Assembly (NCBI GenBank): GCA_946405145.1
Contig: CAMJGE010000002.1
Span: 124,001-188,000, forward strand
Reading direction: 5' to 3'
DNA from: an uncultured Prevotella sp.
Lineage (GTDB): Bacteria > Bacteroidota > Bacteroidia > Bacteroidales > Bacteroidaceae
Length of the DNA stretch: 64,000 nucleotides
Each line of letters starts with the position of its first letter. The first letter of the stretch is position 1. The position numbers were made by a program, and so were the translations under genes. Under the pieces are notes generated by a model. It saw only the letters and a program-made list of their open reading frames with translations, made no database searches and had not been told where the DNA came from. Shown one piece after another: positions 8,960-19,742 of this stretch.

Positions 8960-9161
8960 CTACGGCATGAGGTCCTTGCGATCCTTATTCATGGTGTCAA
9001 TAAGAGCTTCCTTTTTTATGGCAATTGTACTTCTTCGTAAAGCCAGGAATCGTTCCCGACCTGTGTTCTGTCACACGCCTTTCCAGATCGTTTGTCACAC
9101 CGATGTACAGTGTTGTGTCGCTTTTGTTCGCGAGGATGTATGTGTAGTATTGGTTGTGCAT
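8960..9161 (-). pseudogene. GIY-YIG endonuclease-like pseudogene with internal out-of-frame deletion
   Basis: minus strand reads MHNQYYTYILANKSDTTLYIGVTNDLERRVTEHRSGTIPGFTKKYNCH, then in another frame KKEALIDTMNKDRKDLMP*. Confidence 0.75.
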
Positions 9162-9267
9162 GATTGTAAATTTCTAGATTTCTCGGCCTTGCTCGAAATG
9201 ACAAAAAGGGGTGTATTCCCGCTAAAGCGCCTACCCGTAGCCTTTCGAAATGACAGGGAGGAGGGGG

Positions 9268-9310
9268 AATTAGGGAAAATTCCCCCAAAATTTCCCCTAA
9301 TTCCCCATTA
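9268..9310. repeat. Palindromic direct repeat, copy 1, downstream of fic
   Basis: aattagggaaaattcccccaaaatttcccctaattccccatta; near-identical copy at 10675..10717. Confidence 0.8.
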
Positions 9311-10627
9311 ATGTCCTGTTGCTTTTTCAGATAACAGCACTTCAAATTGGTCTGATTTAATGTAACCGATTGCCCTTTTATTGAGATTCGTGGCAGTTAA
9401 GTAACCCATTCTCACCAATTCCTGCAAATCTGTCCTTGCGGATTTTGGTGAAATATCAAACTGTGTTGCTAACTCTTTGGGGGTAAACAATACACGTTTG
9501 TTATCAGATAGTGCCTGAAGTACATACCTTTGACGTTCGTTAATATAAGATATTCCCTCAAAACGGTAAAGATTCTGTTGCTCATCAATCTTTCGCTGTA
9601 AATACTTTTTTAGCTCTTCAAAAGCCTTTTTCATGACCTCCAAGTGATATTGGATAAAGTATGAAAGGTCATTATTATCATGCTCTGTATAAAGGAATGC
9701 CTTCTCGTAAGCCTTTTTGTTAGTATAGATGATTCTGGATATGGAAAGATATTCTGTTAACCAATACCCTTTCTTAATCATATACCAATAAAATAACGAC
9801 CTTGCAGTTCTACCATTTCCATCTACAAAAGGGTGTATATAGGCCAATACAAAGTGAATGATGATAGCTTTGATAATAGGATGAATAAAGTTGTCACCAT
9901 TTTCGTTATTTGCGAAGTCACACAAGTCTTGAATCATCTTATCTATCTCTTTGTAGGTCGGTGGTGTATGAGCCACGAATCCCGTTATACCATCAACCAC
10001 AAGAATATCATCATTCTTTCGAAACACCCCCTCATCCTCCACATTGTCAAGTGTTTTGTTAGCAATGGAACGATGGATGGAGAGAAGACTTTCAACAGAG
10101 AAATCCTTATCTGAGTCTTTTGATATTTGGTTGATAGTCTCATAATTATTGGCTATCATTTGCTGACTCTTATTGATAGGCTTCAGTTTCTTCCGCAACA
10201 TATCCTTTGCTATCCTACGTGTAGTGGAGGCACCCTCCATCTGGCTAGATGCGATAGCTTCCTCCATGATTGAGCTAATCAGATAATAGCTTTTGTCAGT
10301 AGCAGGGATAATACTTTTAGTACCAAGGCTACCTCCAAGATTCATATCAAAATCATGTAGTAAAGCGAGCATGTTTTGTGTGATTGTGAAGTGGAAGACA
10401 CAATTACCAAACTGAATGTCTTGGGCTTTTAGCCTACGTTGAATTTTCACAGCCTGCCATAGCACCAGCTTGTCCATAGCCTTTGGAGCCATGTATTTCA
10501 CCTTATCCCAATACAAATACTCGCTTTCAATCTTCTGGAACAGCGGTGCCAATTCTTGATTAGACAGCATCTGTATGGCGTCCACCATTTTATCAGGATT
10601 AATAACTGGAACTGATTCTACTTTCAT
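9308..10627 (-). CDS. Fic family protein with C-terminal HTH
   Basis: HPFVDGNGRTARSLFYW Fic motif, N-terminal Fic/DOC region, C-terminal winged-helix-like segment. Start set at MKVESVPVINPDK; longer ORF to 10669. Confidence 0.93.
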   Translation of the reverse strand: MKVESVPVINPDKMVDAIQMLSNQELAPLFQKIESEYLYWDKVKYMAPKAMDKLVLWQAVKIQRRLKAQDIQFGNCVFHFTITQNMLALLHDFDMNLGGSLGTKSIIPATDKSYYLISSIMEEAIASSQMEGASTTRRIAKDMLRKKLKPINKSQQMIANNYETINQISKDSDKDFSVESLLSIHRSIANKTLDNVEDEGVFRKNDDILVVDGITGFVAHTPPTYKEIDKMIQDLCDFANNENGDNFIHPIIKAIIIHFVLAYIHPFVDGNGRTARSLFYWYMIKKGYWLTEYLSISRIIYTNKKAYEKAFLYTEHDNNDLSYFIQYHLEVMKKAFEELKKYLQRKIDEQQNLYRFEGISYINERQRYVLQALSDNKRVLFTPKELATQFDISPKSARTDLQELVRMGYLTATNLNKRAIGYIKSDQFEVLLSEKATGH

Positions 10628-10674
10628 TGTCTTACTATATGAATTTGTGTGCAAAGATACAATAATCATTTTAA

Positions 10675-10717
10675 AATTAGGGGAAATTCCCCCAAAATTT
10701 CCCCTAATTTCCCATTT
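10675..10717. repeat. Palindromic direct repeat, copy 2, upstream of fic
   Basis: aattaggggaaattcccccaaaatttcccctaatttcccattt; inner inverted symmetry TTAGGGGAAATT/AATTTCCCCTAA. Confidence 0.8.
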
Positions 10718-10815
10718 TTAACATTAAAGGTCCTACAAAACCTCGTATTTGAGCGAAGTATCTTCGACGGTAGTCAATGATACGCATAAGCGAGGAAAAA
10801 AGCTAAAGGAAATAA

Positions 10816-10891
10816 ATATCCCCCCGACTCAGTTCACATAAGCGCTCGATCTTTGATCGCTTGCTTCGGCAAGAACTAAATCGGGGGATAT
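10816..10891. repeat. Hairpin repeat, copy 1, with an extra nested stem
   Basis: atatccccccgactcagttcacataag...gaactaaatcgggggatat; related to 15396..15439. Confidence 0.7.
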
Positions 10892-10941
10892 CACATATAT
10901 ACTCACGGCATGAAGCCTTTACTCTTTAGCCATCTTACATC

Positions 10942-11733
10942 TTATCCTGCCTTATAAAGGCAATATCTCTGAAACTTCATCACTTCCTCCACCCCATCAC
11001 TCAATGTCCTGATAGCCGAAGGCAGATGAATATTGTCATTACCATCTTCTTCCGATGACACGAGCACATCTCCTTGCCCATTTTCCGAGAAATGCTCATA
11101 TTGTGAGAAATACTTATAATAGTGGTACAATCGCGTTGCCACCTCTTTAACATCTGGCATTTTGATCAAGAAGTCTGTCAAATCTTTAGTCCCAATGCTC
11201 TTCGCTTTCGAAAAACCATCCTTTTTAAGTTGTTCTTTCGATTGCTTCTTTATCACAATATCTTTTTTATCCTCATCAAATTCAATCAATTGCGGGAAAT
11301 TATCTTCCATCGTCAACTCCCATATATGGTCTATAAAGGCATCGTGAAAATCCATCCCGGTGCTTTTAACCTGATCTTTGTACACCTCACGTCGTTCTAA
11401 CATTGAATTGGCATATTCAATCGTCCTCAAATCAAGCTCCTCGTATGCCTGTTCCTTGTCCACTCTCTGAATAAATAAAGCGAACAAGCAATCAGTAAAG
11501 CAACATCGCAAGATGATTCCAATCGGTAACTGAAAAAAAGAAATCCTTCCCTTTTTAAGAGCTTGTACAGTTAAAAGCAAAGCAGAGTACAGGTTTGAGT
11601 AGATACGGTATAACAAAAGTAACACCACCTTATCTACACGTTCTAGTTCCCCCTGCGGTTGCTCCTTCCCATAACTTTGAATCCGCTTCAGCAAGGCAAG
11701 TTCTTCTGCATATAGATCCTTTATCTCTGTCAT
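10942..11733 (-). CDS. Hypothetical protein, likely partner of the SIR2-like gene
   Basis: 263-aa ORF, same strand and about 30 bp downstream of the SIR2-like gene; no family recognised. Confidence 0.7.
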   Translation of the reverse strand: MTEIKDLYAEELALLKRIQSYGKEQPQGELERVDKVVLLLLYRIYSNLYSALLLTVQALKKGRISFFQLPIGIILRCCFTDCLFALFIQRVDKEQAYEELDLRTIEYANSMLERREVYKDQVKSTGMDFHDAFIDHIWELTMEDNFPQLIEFDEDKKDIVIKKQSKEQLKKDGFSKAKSIGTKDLTDFLIKMPDVKEVATRLYHYYKYFSQYEHFSENGQGDVLVSSEEDGNDNIHLPSAIRTLSDGVEEVMKFQRYCLYKAG

Positions 11734-11763
11734 CTATATATTTACATTCCAAACCTATTTGCA

Positions 11764-14700
11764 CTAAATCTCTACGTCAAACGCCATCTTCACATCATTA
11801 AACATCTCATGGTCATCTACGACAAGTTTTTTCCATTCTCCTCTTTCTTTTATTAGATCTTTATCTCTCACATGGATGCTTCGCAACAGCAAGGACATAC
11901 AATATAGCACATCCGCTTTTGCATTAGCCGAAAAGCTACCATCATTAAGCCTGTTGCGAAGATATACCACTGAGTTTATCAAGTTTTGAGTCAACTCTAG
12001 CTTATGGTGCTTTCTCAAGTAACTAAGGAATTCTATATATTCATAGATATAGTCATTTTGCGATGTCCTAAGATATTGACATACATCCTCCACGACCCCA
12101 TCCATATCATGATCACGTAATGATAGAAACTTTAATGCATTCAATGCATCTGTTCGACGCTTACGGTCGCCACTGAACATCCTCAACTTCAATCCTTCAA
12201 TAAATGAGCCAATTGTCTGATCTGTTTTTTTTGAAGCAACCATCAATATAGCATTAATATTCGTAACCTCAAAGTCATTATCCAGTCCCTTCAGTTCGTC
12301 AGCCAATACATCAAGCTTGCTAACATCTACCAGCGACAAATTTACACGCCCTAATAGTTTATTAAAAATGGTAAGGAAATATCCTATATCTTGACTCTGC
12401 CCAAAATCATTATGATTCTCTTTCGATGTCAATTGTACCTTGTATAAACTCAAAAGCTGGATCACCTTATCAATGATATCGGGCATATATTTGTCCAATT
12501 CTCCAGCCACACAAATAAGGTTAATCAAACAGTCACGAACATTAAATAAGTCCTGACTGAATTGACGACCATCCAACTGATAGGTTTTCAATTTATTGAC
12601 TAGATGATCAACAGATGATTCTAATGAGCGGCTTTCTTTTTCCGAATTATAAGGAACAAACTGATAAGATCTAAGAACTACGTTACTATTATAATGCTCC
12701 GAACGCATCTCATAAATTGTATTTAAAAGATATTTATTAGACATTCCGTCTTTAATATATTTAGCAATAACCTTCAGGCGCAGTATCGTTTCTGACAGTT
12801 TATTGAAACTCGTGCTCTTCAAACCGTCTATAAGGATTTGAATCATCTCGTCTGTCAAGACAAAGCCTTTATAACCTCTAGAGGGATAACAAAGCTGAGA
12901 GTCCTGAATTCTTTCATTAATTCCAATAGGTGATAAAAAAATACTCGGCAGCACTTCTTTTATCGAATTTTCGTCCATGCACGCATAAAGAAGCTCCATA
13001 TGTTTTATCTGATACTCAGGGTTTGAGCTGTTGTAAAGTCTTAGGTATAACTTGAACAACTCAACAATCTGGCTTTGCTCAAGCTTAACGCTCATGAAAA
13101 CTAACGTCGGGATTACCGTTTGATAAATAATTCTGCTTAAATTGGGATCTTTCGACGTCTTCTCAACAGCCTCCTTACATGGCTTAATCCAGAGGGTATA
13201 GAACTTTACAGCTTCTTTTTTACTGATAAGGGCAAACATCTCTCGACTATACACATCGCGAATAATCCATCGACCTCCGTTCATCTTGAAGACAGTTGAA
13301 ACCACCATATCGGAGTCATATTTTTGCATGATCTTGATGGCTGCTATCACCTCATTGGTCATAATAGGTCTGCCAAATACCTGGAAAGGGAAGCCAACGC
13401 GATCTAATAAGAATAGCGTTCTATATGCGTTGACAAACTCTTTAAAGAATCCTCTGTCACCACTAGTCCACACGGTATTGACATCCTTTAACAAAAATCC
13501 ATGCTCATAATAGGTTCCACTTCTGAAAGGTTTAGTTTCAGCTTTTAGCCTTACCATGCTTAACACATGGATAAAATCTATCTCATTGTTATGCAATTCG
13601 ATGTTGGCAACGTCTATCTTTGGCACATAATAGCTCAATATCAGGTTGGCCAAATGTGAACATGAATTCAGAAAAGCCCTGTTTGAGTTATCCTTCAGTA
13701 GGGCAGAATTTACATTCTTCCTAATAATCTCTAACAGCATAGCACTTTTTTCTGTTTCACCAAGACTATTCAGTATATTTGCTCTCCAGAATAGACTTTG
13801 GTAATCAAGATCTGAGACATACCAATCAGTCAAGATATTCCTAACTTTGGCAAAGTCAAGTCGCATGATGTAATACTGGCAACGCTCATACATCAACCTT
13901 CCTTCCATGTCGCTTTCATGGTGCTCAAAATAATCAAGGAGTTCCCCCTCAAGAAATTCATAGTCATCCCACATCAGAGAAAGCCTGTACATAGTCAATA
14001 GTGACAATTTCAAAGATATGACCTTATCTACCGCAACTTTTCTCTCGCTATCATTAAGATCTTCTTGATCTTGATAACTTTTGATATCAAGATTCTTTAT
14101 AGCATCTAAATACCATATTGCATGATTAGGGCATGCAGAAATCGTCAAGCGCCAATCTATCTCATATAGGAAGTCAAGTAAATCTGTGTGATTAAGTGCA
14201 TTTACTTTTTCACCGAGATACGGAAACGCCTCCTCCATTTCCCTGAACTGATCATAATATATCTCTGGCAGATACAGCCATCCAGGATAATTCGCCCTAA
14301 TTTCCTTCATCAAAGGAATGGATTCCTTTAATGGGTTCTTCTCAAATACCCTATATGGCAGTTCGCCGTTCCACTCTTTCTGTGGTTTTAGGCTACGCTC
14401 CAAATATTCAAAGAAGAATGTCAGACCTTCATTGATACCCTTGACATCAGGTATATCTGCCATGTTCACATAATCAATGCCTCGCTTATAATTTAGCTTA
14501 ATATCAGCTTCATTCAGTTTTTCGTTATACGTAATAAGATATACAGGCGAACTTAGATTTCCCATTACATCTCTCAACCATCCCAACCAGCTTAAAAAGT
14601 TTGGATCTTCACCAGAGAAGCCTAACAGACAGAACACATTTTCAATTAATGCCTGCCTAACAGTATTTACAAACTCAGGATATTTTTGAGGATAGGTTCT

Positions 14701-15252
14701 GAAATCATCCTCCGTCATGATAAATGGACTGGCATCGGGGAAACTGCCATGAAGCTTAATGATTCTTGGAGCCGTTTTATATAAAAGAGTATTTTTATTA
14801 GTCACCACATTATAACTCCTATCTGTCATTTCTGCAGCCTTCTCAAGAAGCCTATCATAATTGGTGGTAAATACATCCCTCCATGGCAAGCGCATCATGG
14901 CCATATGCAAATCGCCAGGCTTCAACTCATCATCAGGTAACGAACTGGCTATCTGATGATCAAGTTCACTTCTCCCGTGACTCGCTTCTAATAGCGATGC
15001 AAGATGCATGGGCGTTGTAAAATCAAACCGCTTCTCTTCATCAGCATAAATCAGTTCCCAGAAAGAGCTAACCAGCGTGTTCCAACTCTTCATCTGAGCA
15101 TGAGGGTTCATCTTTTTAGCGTTAAGACTAAACCCTGCTCCCACCATCGCTGTTGCCATATTCTGTGACAGGTAACGACATATCCTATCCAACTTTACAC
15201 GTATACTGGATGGTAAAGCCTTTTCTAATAAATCAAAACGAGAATTGTCCAT
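11764..15252 (-). CDS. SIR2-like NADase-type defence protein with long helical C-terminus
   Basis: GAGFSLNA, WRDVFTTNYDRLLEKA, IIKLHGSFPD, CLLGFSGEDPNFLSWLGWLRD are SIR2-like family motifs; 1162 aa. Confidence 0.88.
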   Translation of the reverse strand: MDNSRFDLLEKALPSSIRVKLDRICRYLSQNMATAMVGAGFSLNAKKMNPHAQMKSWNTLVSSFWELIYADEEKRFDFTTPMHLASLLEASHGRSELDHQIASSLPDDELKPGDLHMAMMRLPWRDVFTTNYDRLLEKAAEMTDRSYNVVTNKNTLLYKTAPRIIKLHGSFPDASPFIMTEDDFRTYPQKYPEFVNTVRQALIENVFCLLGFSGEDPNFLSWLGWLRDVMGNLSSPVYLITYNEKLNEADIKLNYKRGIDYVNMADIPDVKGINEGLTFFFEYLERSLKPQKEWNGELPYRVFEKNPLKESIPLMKEIRANYPGWLYLPEIYYDQFREMEEAFPYLGEKVNALNHTDLLDFLYEIDWRLTISACPNHAIWYLDAIKNLDIKSYQDQEDLNDSERKVAVDKVISLKLSLLTMYRLSLMWDDYEFLEGELLDYFEHHESDMEGRLMYERCQYYIMRLDFAKVRNILTDWYVSDLDYQSLFWRANILNSLGETEKSAMLLEIIRKNVNSALLKDNSNRAFLNSCSHLANLILSYYVPKIDVANIELHNNEIDFIHVLSMVRLKAETKPFRSGTYYEHGFLLKDVNTVWTSGDRGFFKEFVNAYRTLFLLDRVGFPFQVFGRPIMTNEVIAAIKIMQKYDSDMVVSTVFKMNGGRWIIRDVYSREMFALISKKEAVKFYTLWIKPCKEAVEKTSKDPNLSRIIYQTVIPTLVFMSVKLEQSQIVELFKLYLRLYNSSNPEYQIKHMELLYACMDENSIKEVLPSIFLSPIGINERIQDSQLCYPSRGYKGFVLTDEMIQILIDGLKSTSFNKLSETILRLKVIAKYIKDGMSNKYLLNTIYEMRSEHYNSNVVLRSYQFVPYNSEKESRSLESSVDHLVNKLKTYQLDGRQFSQDLFNVRDCLINLICVAGELDKYMPDIIDKVIQLLSLYKVQLTSKENHNDFGQSQDIGYFLTIFNKLLGRVNLSLVDVSKLDVLADELKGLDNDFEVTNINAILMVASKKTDQTIGSFIEGLKLRMFSGDRKRRTDALNALKFLSLRDHDMDGVVEDVCQYLRTSQNDYIYEYIEFLSYLRKHHKLELTQNLINSVVYLRNRLNDGSFSANAKADVLYCMSLLLRSIHVRDKDLIKERGEWKKLVVDDHEMFNDVKMAFDVEI

Positions 15253-15395
15253 AATAATAGTAATATTTTCATTCCACCTTCATCTATGACCGCAAAGATA
15301 AGAAAAATTTCCGAACAATACAAACTTTTTTGAACAAAAAAGTGTAAACATTCGAGGATGATTATATAGAGGCATTATCAACTACCCTAAAACGA

Positions 15396-15439
15396 ATATC
15401 CCCCGATTCAGTTCACATTAGAACCAAATCGGGGGATAT
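15396..15439. repeat. Hairpin repeat, copy 2, terminator-like on minus strand
   Basis: ATATCCCCCGATT...AATCGGGGGATAT, 13-bp perfect stem. Confidence 0.75.
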
Positions 15440-15472
15440 CCTCATCCATCATATATCCTACATCATACTTCT

Positions 15473-15877
15473 TTATGTTAATGTTCGGGATATAACAGAA
15501 AAAAGAATAAGAGCTACGACAAGAATGATCATTGCCCCTGTGAGTATCATCATAAAATTAAAAACTCGTTTGTTGAAGTTTGGCTTATTTAAGGAATATC
15601 CCAGTCCCATAATAAGAAAGATCAATGCTATAAAAAGCATAATGAAATTATACCACCCTGGTACACCTGAATCGCTAATCAAGTTTTTGAGGGGATCAGC
15701 AATCAAAGACGAGGATATACCCAAATATAGGGTTGCAATTATAGCATGAAAAGATTTGGGGGGATTTTCCTCTTCCTTTCTGACAGGTTCCTTCTCTATC
15801 GGAGATTCACTTTTCACAGTAATGTTAACATTTAAATCAACATTCCCTTTATGAGTATGTTCTACATAAAAATGCAT
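15473..15877 (-). CDS. Small membrane protein
   Basis: 134 aa with about three hydrophobic helices. Confidence 0.55.
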   Translation of the reverse strand: MHFYVEHTHKGNVDLNVNITVKSESPIEKEPVRKEEENPPKSFHAIIATLYLGISSSLIADPLKNLISDSGVPGWYNFIMLFIALIFLIMGLGYSLNKPNFNKRVFNFMMILTGAMIILVVALILFSVISRTLT

Positions 15878-15939
15878 AGTTTTTATTTATTCAATAATAA
15901 CAATTCCATAACTCGATTGTCAGTAGTTTATGATATGTG

Positions 15940-17727
15940 TCATCGCAATAGCTCTATATTCCAAATATCATTCACGACACCCTCTAGCCTCCTCTGTCTT
16001 GTACTCAAGAAATCATAAGGTTTTGTAATACCTTCACAACCTCTCATCTCTGGCAAATAGTCGTGTTCATATAACCACATAACCCTTTTTACCATATCTT
16101 CCGGAAGGTTTTCCACATCCCACCTGCGACATAAACAGTAGTTTGTTAGAGACCAACAGGTTGTATTTAATGGACTAACCTCTCTTTGATTCCATTCCTC
16201 TTCCGTAAATATTTGGGTAAGTACAAATGAATTCTGCTTCCGAGATCTCAGCAAGGATGAGAAGTCAAGTTCACTATCTATATGTTTCCATATCCTAGCC
16301 AGAGCATAATGTGAATACCCTTGCGAAAGATTGATATTCACGGGCAGCATCGCAACACCTTCAGAGGAATTTCGTAAATCAAAATACAGATTCTGAATCA
16401 ATTCAGACATTGAGTTGTTCCTTATTGTTTTGACCAGTTCGAATATTCTCCTTCTGATGGTGGCTTGATTTACAGACTTCCCCAAGAAAGAACGTCTGTT
16501 GATATATAAATCGATATATGTATTTACAGCCCGCATCTTATCATATATCACATCAGAAGCATCAGTAGCCACGATAGGAGCTAACATCAGAGGCATCATC
16601 AGTGAATCCGCCATAGGATAGCAGGCTGTGATATAGAACTCATCCGACTTCACTTCCTCTCCACCTTGGTTCAGCTGCAAAATGTCCATATACTGCGTAG
16701 AGAAAAACTCGAAATCACCCTTCACAAAAAAGTAATAATCCTCTGATTTGCTCAGGTGCAGCTTCTTCTGATTGTTCTTAAACCATGTCTGGAAGCGCGA
16801 GCCTATCATTTCAAAATCCTCCATTTCGTCACTACTTTGTGCTTTCTTGAAAGTCTCTGCATACTTGCTCCTGAACCATGCCCTGAAAAAGGCCATGTCC
16901 CCATCGTTTCCACCTACGAACTTGATTTCCGACACTCGCTTTTTCCAGAACACATTCATCTCTTCACGTTTGTCTTCGTCTGTAATCTTTGCCAAGATAT
17001 GAGCTTTCAATATTTCTGTCGGATTTAAACTTAGACCTCGATCATTCATTGTCTCAAAAATGGTATAGGCATTGTCTTTATCAAATGCTTTGATTTCTAC
17101 AAGCACTACTTTATAAAGCAACCATTCAATGAAAAGGGGTAATATATTCCTTTCTTGGATATTTTGTGGAAAAAGATGGAGAATGTCATCATATCCGCTG
17201 ACCAAATTGATATTCGATTCTCTGTCGTCTTCACTGTCTTCTGGGAAACTCATATCTATACCATGGATATTCCCGTCGTAGAGCATCTGCAGCACGAGCT
17301 TTCTTTTCGGGACATCCATCACGAAAGTTTTTTTACCGCCCCTCTTGACAAAGATAAAGTCATCCATATTAATGTAGTCTTCATCATCCATCATCCCATA
17401 TTCGACCTGTTTGTGTTGTAAGTAGATGAAGAGCAATGTAAATGATGTCAGTCGTTGTTGACCGTCCACCACCGACATACTCCCCTCGTCCTGACACAGC
17501 ACGACAGGTCCCATATAATAGCAGTCGTATCTGTCTACATTTTCCTGGGTATCCCCCAGTCTATAGCAGTTTAAAAAACTTGACGTCAAGTCACTGACCA
17601 GAGCGTCAATCTGGTCGCGTTTCCAGCGGTAGTCACGTTGGAATACATCAATCTTATACCTATTGCCCGTAAAAACCTGATATAGTGTTTTATGCTGGGC
17701 CACTATATTGTTTGCTATATGTGACAT
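15940..17727 (-). CDS. DUF262 (GmrS-like) protein with DUF1524-like C-terminus
   Basis: YKIDVFQRDYRWKRDQIDALVSDL, SVVDGQQRLTSFTLL. Confidence 0.88.
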   Translation of the reverse strand: MSHIANNIVAQHKTLYQVFTGNRYKIDVFQRDYRWKRDQIDALVSDLTSSFLNCYRLGDTQENVDRYDCYYMGPVVLCQDEGSMSVVDGQQRLTSFTLLFIYLQHKQVEYGMMDDEDYINMDDFIFVKRGGKKTFVMDVPKRKLVLQMLYDGNIHGIDMSFPEDSEDDRESNINLVSGYDDILHLFPQNIQERNILPLFIEWLLYKVVLVEIKAFDKDNAYTIFETMNDRGLSLNPTEILKAHILAKITDEDKREEMNVFWKKRVSEIKFVGGNDGDMAFFRAWFRSKYAETFKKAQSSDEMEDFEMIGSRFQTWFKNNQKKLHLSKSEDYYFFVKGDFEFFSTQYMDILQLNQGGEEVKSDEFYITACYPMADSLMMPLMLAPIVATDASDVIYDKMRAVNTYIDLYINRRSFLGKSVNQATIRRRIFELVKTIRNNSMSELIQNLYFDLRNSSEGVAMLPVNINLSQGYSHYALARIWKHIDSELDFSSLLRSRKQNSFVLTQIFTEEEWNQREVSPLNTTCWSLTNYCLCRRWDVENLPEDMVKRVMWLYEHDYLPEMRGCEGITKPYDFLSTRQRRLEGVVNDIWNIELLR

Positions 17728-17728
17728 A

Positions 17729-18565
17729 TCAGTTCAGCTCTTTAATGATCATACTTTGGATTCGGTAAGCGTGTTCATACACTTCCATATTTTGTATGGT
17801 AGGGTCAAGTTCACCATGAAATATCTGGCACCGTAATTTATACATCAATTGTATCAGTACCTGTGCAAGTTTGTCATCATCATCTATGAAGTAGGTCTTT
17901 TCCTCTTTACCATACATTTTGCTATGAGGTGGCTTGCTCTCAACGCCCTTTCTCATCACAGGTTTCACAATAGCGTCCGTCGGTGCCTTGATATCAACAG
18001 CTTTAAAGGCCTGTTTCAGTCGCATTTTAATGGTTTCAGAGAACTGCGCGAAATCAGGATGAGCTTCTAAATCTTCCATTTCCCATTTGTTGAAAGTGGC
18101 GTTGAATTTTATAGGCCCAGCACCTTTCTCATTAACTTTAATTTCATAGTCAAATCCACTACCACTGGCTTTTACTTTTCTTTCTATCTTATAACTTACC
18201 GAATAAAAATCACCCTGATCCACGGGGTGACTATCATCGTAGATAGTTATGGTTGAGAATGAGATTGGATGTGTCGCGTTAGGTATCGGATGGCGAAGTA
18301 ATGCCAAATGCAAATCCACCATTTCCTGCTGAAAACGCAGATCCTCTCTTGTGTTCCCACGAAGATATGCAAGGATTTTGTTCTTGTAAGTATTTTCATT
18401 CTTACAAATATAGTTTATACATTCCCTGTCTGTGCCGTTATTAGTCTCTGGGGCTATGTCACGGTTATACCAGGCGTTGAATGGTATCCACGCCTTAACG
18501 AAAAGGGTATAGAAGTCCTCCCTCGCCTTTTCAAGCCATCTGTCTATATGTAAATTATATGGCAT
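17729..18565 (-). CDS. HEPN/Apea-like protein, partner of the DUF262 gene
   Basis: C-terminal YKLRCQIFHGELDPT matches HEPN R-x4-H; 1-bp gap to the DUF262 ORF. Confidence 0.6.
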   Translation of the reverse strand: MPYNLHIDRWLEKAREDFYTLFVKAWIPFNAWYNRDIAPETNNGTDRECINYICKNENTYKNKILAYLRGNTREDLRFQQEMVDLHLALLRHPIPNATHPISFSTITIYDDSHPVDQGDFYSVSYKIERKVKASGSGFDYEIKVNEKGAGPIKFNATFNKWEMEDLEAHPDFAQFSETIKMRLKQAFKAVDIKAPTDAIVKPVMRKGVESKPPHSKMYGKEEKTYFIDDDDKLAQVLIQLMYKLRCQIFHGELDPTIQNMEVYEHAYRIQSMIIKELN

Positions 18566-18589
18566 AATAATACTGTATCATCAATCCTG

Positions 18590-18823
18590 TTACTCATGCT
18601 GAATAAAAAACAACTCCTCGAGCTCATGGTAGCTTAAATTCTTCTTCTCGATCCTGAGTCCGTTCCCGAACACCAGCTTCACATACTTGACACACGATGT
18701 CCTCTTCGGGCCTTCAGATTTCTTCTCTTCTGCCTCGGGCTCTGGCTTGGGCTCTTCGTCGCGTCCCACGATCTCAACCGGAACAATCCGCTTCTTACGA
18801 TCCCGGAACCACTTGTTAAACAC
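18590..18823 (-). pseudogene. IS66 TnpA-like fragment
   Basis: upstream frame reads FCIQQGVPYQVFNKWFRDRKK; C-terminal VKLVFGNGLRIEKKNLSYHELEELF resembles IS66 ORF1. Confidence 0.45.
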
Positions 18824-19143
18824 CTGATAGGGTACACCCTGCTGTATGCAGAAGGTTTAGCTCGACGGCCAAAGGGAAAGTCAATTGCTCTATCGAAACT
18901 CCCTTCGGTTCACCTTCTAATTTGTAGAGAAACCAAAGCTTTTCACAATCTTCACTACTGCACATAATCTCAAAAAAAAGCTTGTGCAAAAGTAGTCATT
19001 AGCCTGGAGCTACACAAGATGTGAAAATTGGACGCTTACCAATAAACACCGGCAAACGCAACACCGCCAATGAGGATGATAGCAAGGATGTACAACCATA
19101 GTTGGGTCTTAACTGGCAACTTCAACTTTTCCACAAATCTATG

Positions 19144-19733
19144 TCACCGCCTTGGATAAATTGCTCGTATATGCTCTTGATTCTCGGAAGCGATATGGCT
19201 CTTTTTGAATTCTTTAAATCCTTCCTCGTTTAAGAAAGGCATCAACTCCGCATAGTCTGTTTCTTTATATACGGTACTACTCTCCACTCTCGTTCATCAT
19301 AGAAGCGATAGCTTTTGAATCTCTTGTGTTTCGTAATCAAAGGAGCCTGAACAAACTTCATCTGTGCAAACAGATACATAACAGCACCAAACCGTGATTG
19401 AATGTCATTCTTTAAAGCATCATCCAATAGCAGGTTTAGCATCTTCAAACCACGTGATCCTAAACTGCAATAGGTTACAGGTGAGAAGCCGGCTTTCACG
19501 CCCCAGTTCTGCTTAAACCCTATACAGTAGTTACCATATGCCCATTTGTTATTCCCTACTTCTGAGAATGGACAATCGCTTACGCTTAACATCGAGAAAG
19601 CAATTGGCTTAAATCCGAATTCCGGTACTATTTTTTCAAGGCTGTACGAGTATCTCAGTTCTTTCGACTCCAAGATTGCATAGAATCCGACCTCATTGGT
19701 TTGATGCCATAATATATTTGAAGTAAGTCCCAT
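19144..19733 (-). pseudogene. AbiGi-like protein (PF10899-type), C-terminus frameshifted
   Basis: 19242..19733 encodes YGNYCIGFKQNWG...FYDEREWRVVPY; a 1-nt shift near 19260 restores KETDYAELMPFLNEEGFKEFKKSHIASENQEHIRAIYPRR*. Confidence 0.6.
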
Positions 19734-19742
19734 AATCTTTGT

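Follow-up and report, generated by a model that had tools for sequence, protein, structure and literature searches.

DSR2 is described as a single-gene system, in which the C-terminal region of the protein is the sensor of the phage tail tube protein. The 1162-aa gene found in the window (the whole stretch of 64,000 nucleotides that was analysed, from a gut-type Bacteroidales bacterium) is a new member of this known kind of gene, a DSR2-like gene for a predicted NADase effector. The protein matched the PADLOC Dsr2 model over nearly its full length (466 bits, residues 11-1113) and the Pfam family SIR2_2 at 1.6e-21. A profile made of two sequences, the window protein and a 32-33% identical relative in genome G394 (locus L027), matched the solved DSR2 chains (8k98 and others) at 9e-15, within the SIR2 part only (positions 35-244), and for the C-terminal region this profile comparison detected no sequence similarity to the solved B. 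subtilis DSR2. The Asn/His pair of the SIR2 domain is kept, with Asn131 (in TTNYD) and His168 (in KLHGS) aligning with the SIR2 domain of solved DSR2. The catalytic control mutant of DSR2 in PMC10973363 is N133A/H171A. The Dsr2 match and the presence of the catalytic Asn/His pair agree with the initial annotation, which had taken the gene for a probable SIR2-type NAD-depleting anti-phage effector.

The N-terminal SIR2 domain with its conserved pair, the long C-terminal region and the full-length PADLOC match are thus shared with DSR2, but only the SIR2 part can be aligned with the solved B. subtilis protein (1005 aa), and whereas the known system consists of one gene, the window gene has a second gene, here called P263, behind it. 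Also ThsA of the Thoeris system has a related SIR2 NADase domain, but the match is limited to the SIR2 region, and both length and C-terminal region differ.

Both open reading frames listed in the initial annotation were recovered as given, 1162 and 263 aa long and on the minus strand (Table 1), and they would be transcribed as one unit. The defence island around them includes a SoFic-like Fic gene, a GmrSD-type pair, Hachiman and an AbiGi-antitoxin-like gene, after which a capsule-type locus follows; no Rfam match was obtained over positions 9000-27500 (search up to E 1). The protein with the GmrSD N-terminal domain and its 278-aa partner, which has no family, form a conserved pair (window 15473-18565), with 51% and 41% identical counterparts in genome G376 (L070). 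The Fic gene lies between near-identical 42-nt palindromic repeats (95%) at 9268-9309 and 10675-10716, the sole two copies in the genome. Its homologue in genome G350 (L062) has 48-nt palindromes on either side, 100% identical when one is reverse-complemented, and similar palindrome pairs of different sequence are present in L064 and L066. The palindromes upstream of the Fic genes may serve the Fic HTH domain as operators.

Table 1. Genes and hairpins of the DSR2-P263 locus and its neighbourhood in the window.
Feature	Position	Strand	Description
SoFic-like Fic gene, C-terminal HTH	9308..10669	minus	own palindromic repeats on both sides
Hairpin copy 1	10818..10892	minus	31-nt nested stem; 49 nt past P263 stop; probable terminator
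P263 gene	10942..11733	minus	263 aa, helical, DUF5677-like below family cut-off; start 30 nt past DSR2 stop
DSR2-like gene	11764..15252	minus	1162 aa; SIR2 domain N-terminal (about residues 34-260) and long sensor-like C-terminal region
Hairpin copy 2	15396..15439	minus	33 nt past 134-aa gene stop, 143 nt ahead of DSR2 start; probable terminator of preceding operon
134-aa membrane-like protein gene	15473..15877	minus	final gene of preceding operon
GmrSD N-terminal domain protein	15940..17727	minus	pairs with 278-aa gene, here and in G376
278-aa gene, partner of GmrSD-type gene	17729..18565	minus	41% identical homologue adjoins GmrSD homologue in L070
Hachiman genes (HamB, HamA) and AbiGi-antitoxin-like gene	19242..23934	minus	remainder of defence island

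Two related hairpins bracket the two-gene operon as direct repeats. Their likeness is above chance, since the longest exact run common to both intergenic regions was 15 nt and the maximum among 300 random Markov-1 pairs was 13; the hairpins themselves share one run of 22 nt (91%) and one of 21 nt (95%). The pair of hairpins had been reported in the initial annotation together with an extra nested stem of about 30 nt in the first copy. The relation and the stem, a 31-nt insert, were both found, but copy 1 has six C's instead of five and therefore misses the exact consensus that had been given. On the minus strand both hairpins fold far more stably than shuffled sequences (z -6.3 and -4.4). As minus-strand RNA, copy 2 has 21 pairs in an unbroken row, G-U included (-35.4 kcal/mol), whereas in the plus-strand RNA the G-U positions turn into A-C mismatches (-26.2 kcal/mol). 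Both hairpins pair better in the RNA of the coding strand of the flanking genes. Each has the G+C stem and the place after a stop codon that mark an intrinsic terminator, but the T tract past it is only moderate, and a simple terminator scan flagged neither copy.

Instead of occurring behind many unrelated genes throughout the genome, the hairpin was present in its own genome in two copies only (search up to 3 mismatches), and searches of 300 further family genomes (1 mismatch allowed) and of the viral contigs found none. A similar hairpin, in single copy, was detected in genome G341, where it lies between converging 3' ends: an S24-type repressor gene ends 17 nt from it and, on the opposite strand, the last gene of an Avs1-type operon ends 287 nt from it. 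The possibility that the hairpin belongs natively to the GmrSD operon was rejected, as no hairpin was seen flanking the homologue in G376.

The simplest and most likely reading is that the hairpins are transcription terminators related by descent, both copies likely deriving from one ancestral terminator. The pairing as minus-strand RNA, the position behind stop codons and the G341 hairpin between converging 3' ends all favour this reading, which the initial annotation had offered as its alternative and which fits best. Copy 2 would end the preceding GmrSD-type operon and copy 1 the DSR2-P263 operon. A role of the hairpins in recombination or integration, as att-like direct repeats through which DSR2-P263 was delivered as a cassette, is improbable. 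They are direct repeats that exactly flank the operon and are unique in the genome, and the neighbouring Fic gene is flanked as well, by different palindromic repeats of its own. The stem pairing, however, suits a one-strand RNA better than DNA symmetry, the nearest hairpin elsewhere is the single copy of G341, no recombinase gene was identified among the genes examined, and no empty or alternative site was found in the own genome, the 300 family genomes or the viral contigs. Since the search turned up no genome in which these hairpins enclose a different cassette, the exchange of cassettes by way of the hairpins, as first suggested, is not supported.

The SIR2 gene is of a known kind and the hairpins are most likely ordinary terminators; what is new here is P263, a tail gene that recombines, is under selection and follows defence systems unrelated to one another. 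A description of its association with defence was not found among the open-licence papers searched. Ten close homologues, 65-73% identical, were found in Bacteroidales. The gene is rare: among 398 sampled genomes of the genus, 5 had it, the window genome counted, a sample of 393 genomes of the order added no further one, and the plasmid, phage and viral collections contained none. Segatella maculosa DSM 19339 is one of the isolates that carry it, in an AbiE-P263 arrangement. A scan of GTDB contigs gave eight loci, and after duplicates were merged the set consisted of the window and ten loci.

In all 11 loci the upstream neighbour of P263 is a directly adjoining gene on the same strand that matches a known or candidate defence family, although some of these matches (PDC candidates, OLD-like, kinase) are at family level only. 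At least seven kinds of upstream defence genes are represented, six or more in addition to the DSR2 of the window. Five loci (L032, L033, L035, L036 and L046) have P263 directly behind avs1c of an Avs1abc operon. In the remaining loci it follows Avs2 (L016), AbiEi/AbiEii (L034), an OLD-like ATPase (L037), a protein kinase that itself lies behind a PDC-M62 pair (L031), and a frameshifted AAA_14/DUF4143 ATPase gene with no other system gene before it (L030). The Avs1 operons resemble the described Avs1 (AVAST type I) system, but the PADLOC components Avs1a, Avs1b and Avs1c exclude P263, and the Avs1-type operon of G341 (L068) is without it. Also the DSR2 relative in L027 has no P263 beside it, and the gene is therefore optional.

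More distant relatives, 17-34% identical, sit behind non-defence genes, which speaks against a general defence accessory. In a Bacteroidales type VI secretion cluster, for example, one of them (L047:7181-10344, 34% identical) comes after tssR. In two other loci (L017:6240-9442 and L018:9478-12689) an 816-820-aa gene with a GIY-YIG nuclease domain shares its last 10 nt with a distant P263-like gene, and it is possible that the two form a further two-gene system.

When loci with different upstream systems were compared, DNA similarity generally began at the start codon of P263 and ended near its stop codon. This similarity was 68-75% with the window copy and up to 96% among the other loci. L046 differs from the other Avs1 loci in that its STAND protein is only about 58% identical to theirs, whereas its P263 is 84-93% identical. 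These boundaries and the contrast in identity indicate that P263 recombines independently of the neighbouring gene. Pairwise dN/dS was 0.09-0.44 and there were no internal stops or disrupted copies, which shows purifying selection and thus a protein in use. Judged from these sequence comparisons, P263 is a tail gene that is under selection and can be exchanged between unrelated defence systems, and cassette shuffling does occur around it, with gene ends and not the hairpins as the boundaries.

Direct repeats around the other P263 cassettes were clear only in L030, as a 41-nt duplicated stretch before an ECF-sigma-like gene. An AAA_14/DUF4143 ATPase gene (PADLOC PDC-S01; 91-95% identical) directly precedes Avs1, Avs2 or P263 in L016, L030, L033, L036 and L046. 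It was considered as a fixed cassette boundary with P263 because of this bracketing in five loci, yet the candidate was rejected, as the gene also lies beside many unrelated genes. Elsewhere in the genus, near-identical copies adjoin genes of unrelated kinds, and the ATPase gene seems to be mobile by itself.

In L016, L030 and L034, where the upstream genes differ, the similarity begins about 60-78 nt before P263, as if the gene had a 5' region of its own. In L034 and L036 it runs on 2.7 kb into a common gene of 610-615 aa behind P263 (L036:8778-10625, L034:8775-10604), and remnants of this gene persist in L016, L033 and L035. The gene has no Pfam or PADLOC match; the N-terminal part of its product gives the impression of a DUF4365-type nuclease. 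The common leader, the pairing with the 610-aa gene and L030, where only the ATPase gene precedes, would all agree with P263 being an independent single-gene defence or a selfish, addiction-type gene, which spreads by itself and does not act on the upstream protein, homologous recombination through P263 swapping whatever is upstream. This reading has an appreciable probability, although below even. It does not readily account for the position of P263, which in every locus shares the strand of the system and immediately follows its last gene, 30 nt from DSR2 and with an 8-nt overlap between the avs1c stop and the P263 start in the Avs1 loci. Such tight spacing and overlap on one strand favour co-expression, and the overlap suggests translational coupling of avs1c and P263.

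Among the 13 P263-like members only one matched DUF5677 (PF18928), and P263 itself aligned with this family over residues 34-224 (E 1e-4). It shares the Arg and S-x3-H positions of DUF5677, but its score of 22.8 bits is under the curated cut-off of 27.1. R76, S210 and H214 are invariant across 20 diverse rows and are candidates for active- or binding-site residues. An early AlphaFold model from 10 close sequences was unusable (pLDDT 51) and was superseded by one from a 20-row alignment (pLDDT 80.6). Structure prediction, proposed in the initial annotation for the partner gene, thus produced a nearly all-helical model, but a Foldseek search with it gave no match with E<=0.001 in the PDB or in the viral library.

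The helical model and the segment YKYFSQYEH, with a K-x6-H motif that is R-x6-H in some distant DUF5677-like rows, recall HEPN RNases, although this is only a lead. A DSR2-specific role of P263, as an antitoxin-like or HEPN-like RNase component, is quite unlikely, as P263 accompanies many systems besides DSR2, has no HEPN match in Pfam and found no counterpart in the PDB search.

A shared accessory is our preferred reading over a gene spreading independently among defence loci. P263 moves between these loci and is retained at the end of unrelated defence operons, and it would be co-expressed with whichever sensor-effector lies upstream, acting as a general accessory that sets, restrains or extends the response and not as a part specific to DSR2. 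In its tentative form, with P263 as a common accessory of phage-sensing effectors whose mechanisms are unrelated (SIR2 NADase, STAND-protease/nuclease, AbiE toxin, OLD-like ATPase) and as a downstream regulator or amplifier that they share in the abortive infection of Bacteroidales, the proposal is possible but rather doubtful. The account as a whole, with a DSR2-P263 operon, P263 as a mobile general accessory and the hairpins as terminators, is held with modest confidence, slightly above even.

If at least seven unrelated systems carry one small, selected gene at their end, this would suggest that they have a level of control or output in common. Catalogues of defence systems usually treat every system separately, as a set of parts of its own, and the case of P263 shows that profile libraries built system by system can miss a recurrent component.
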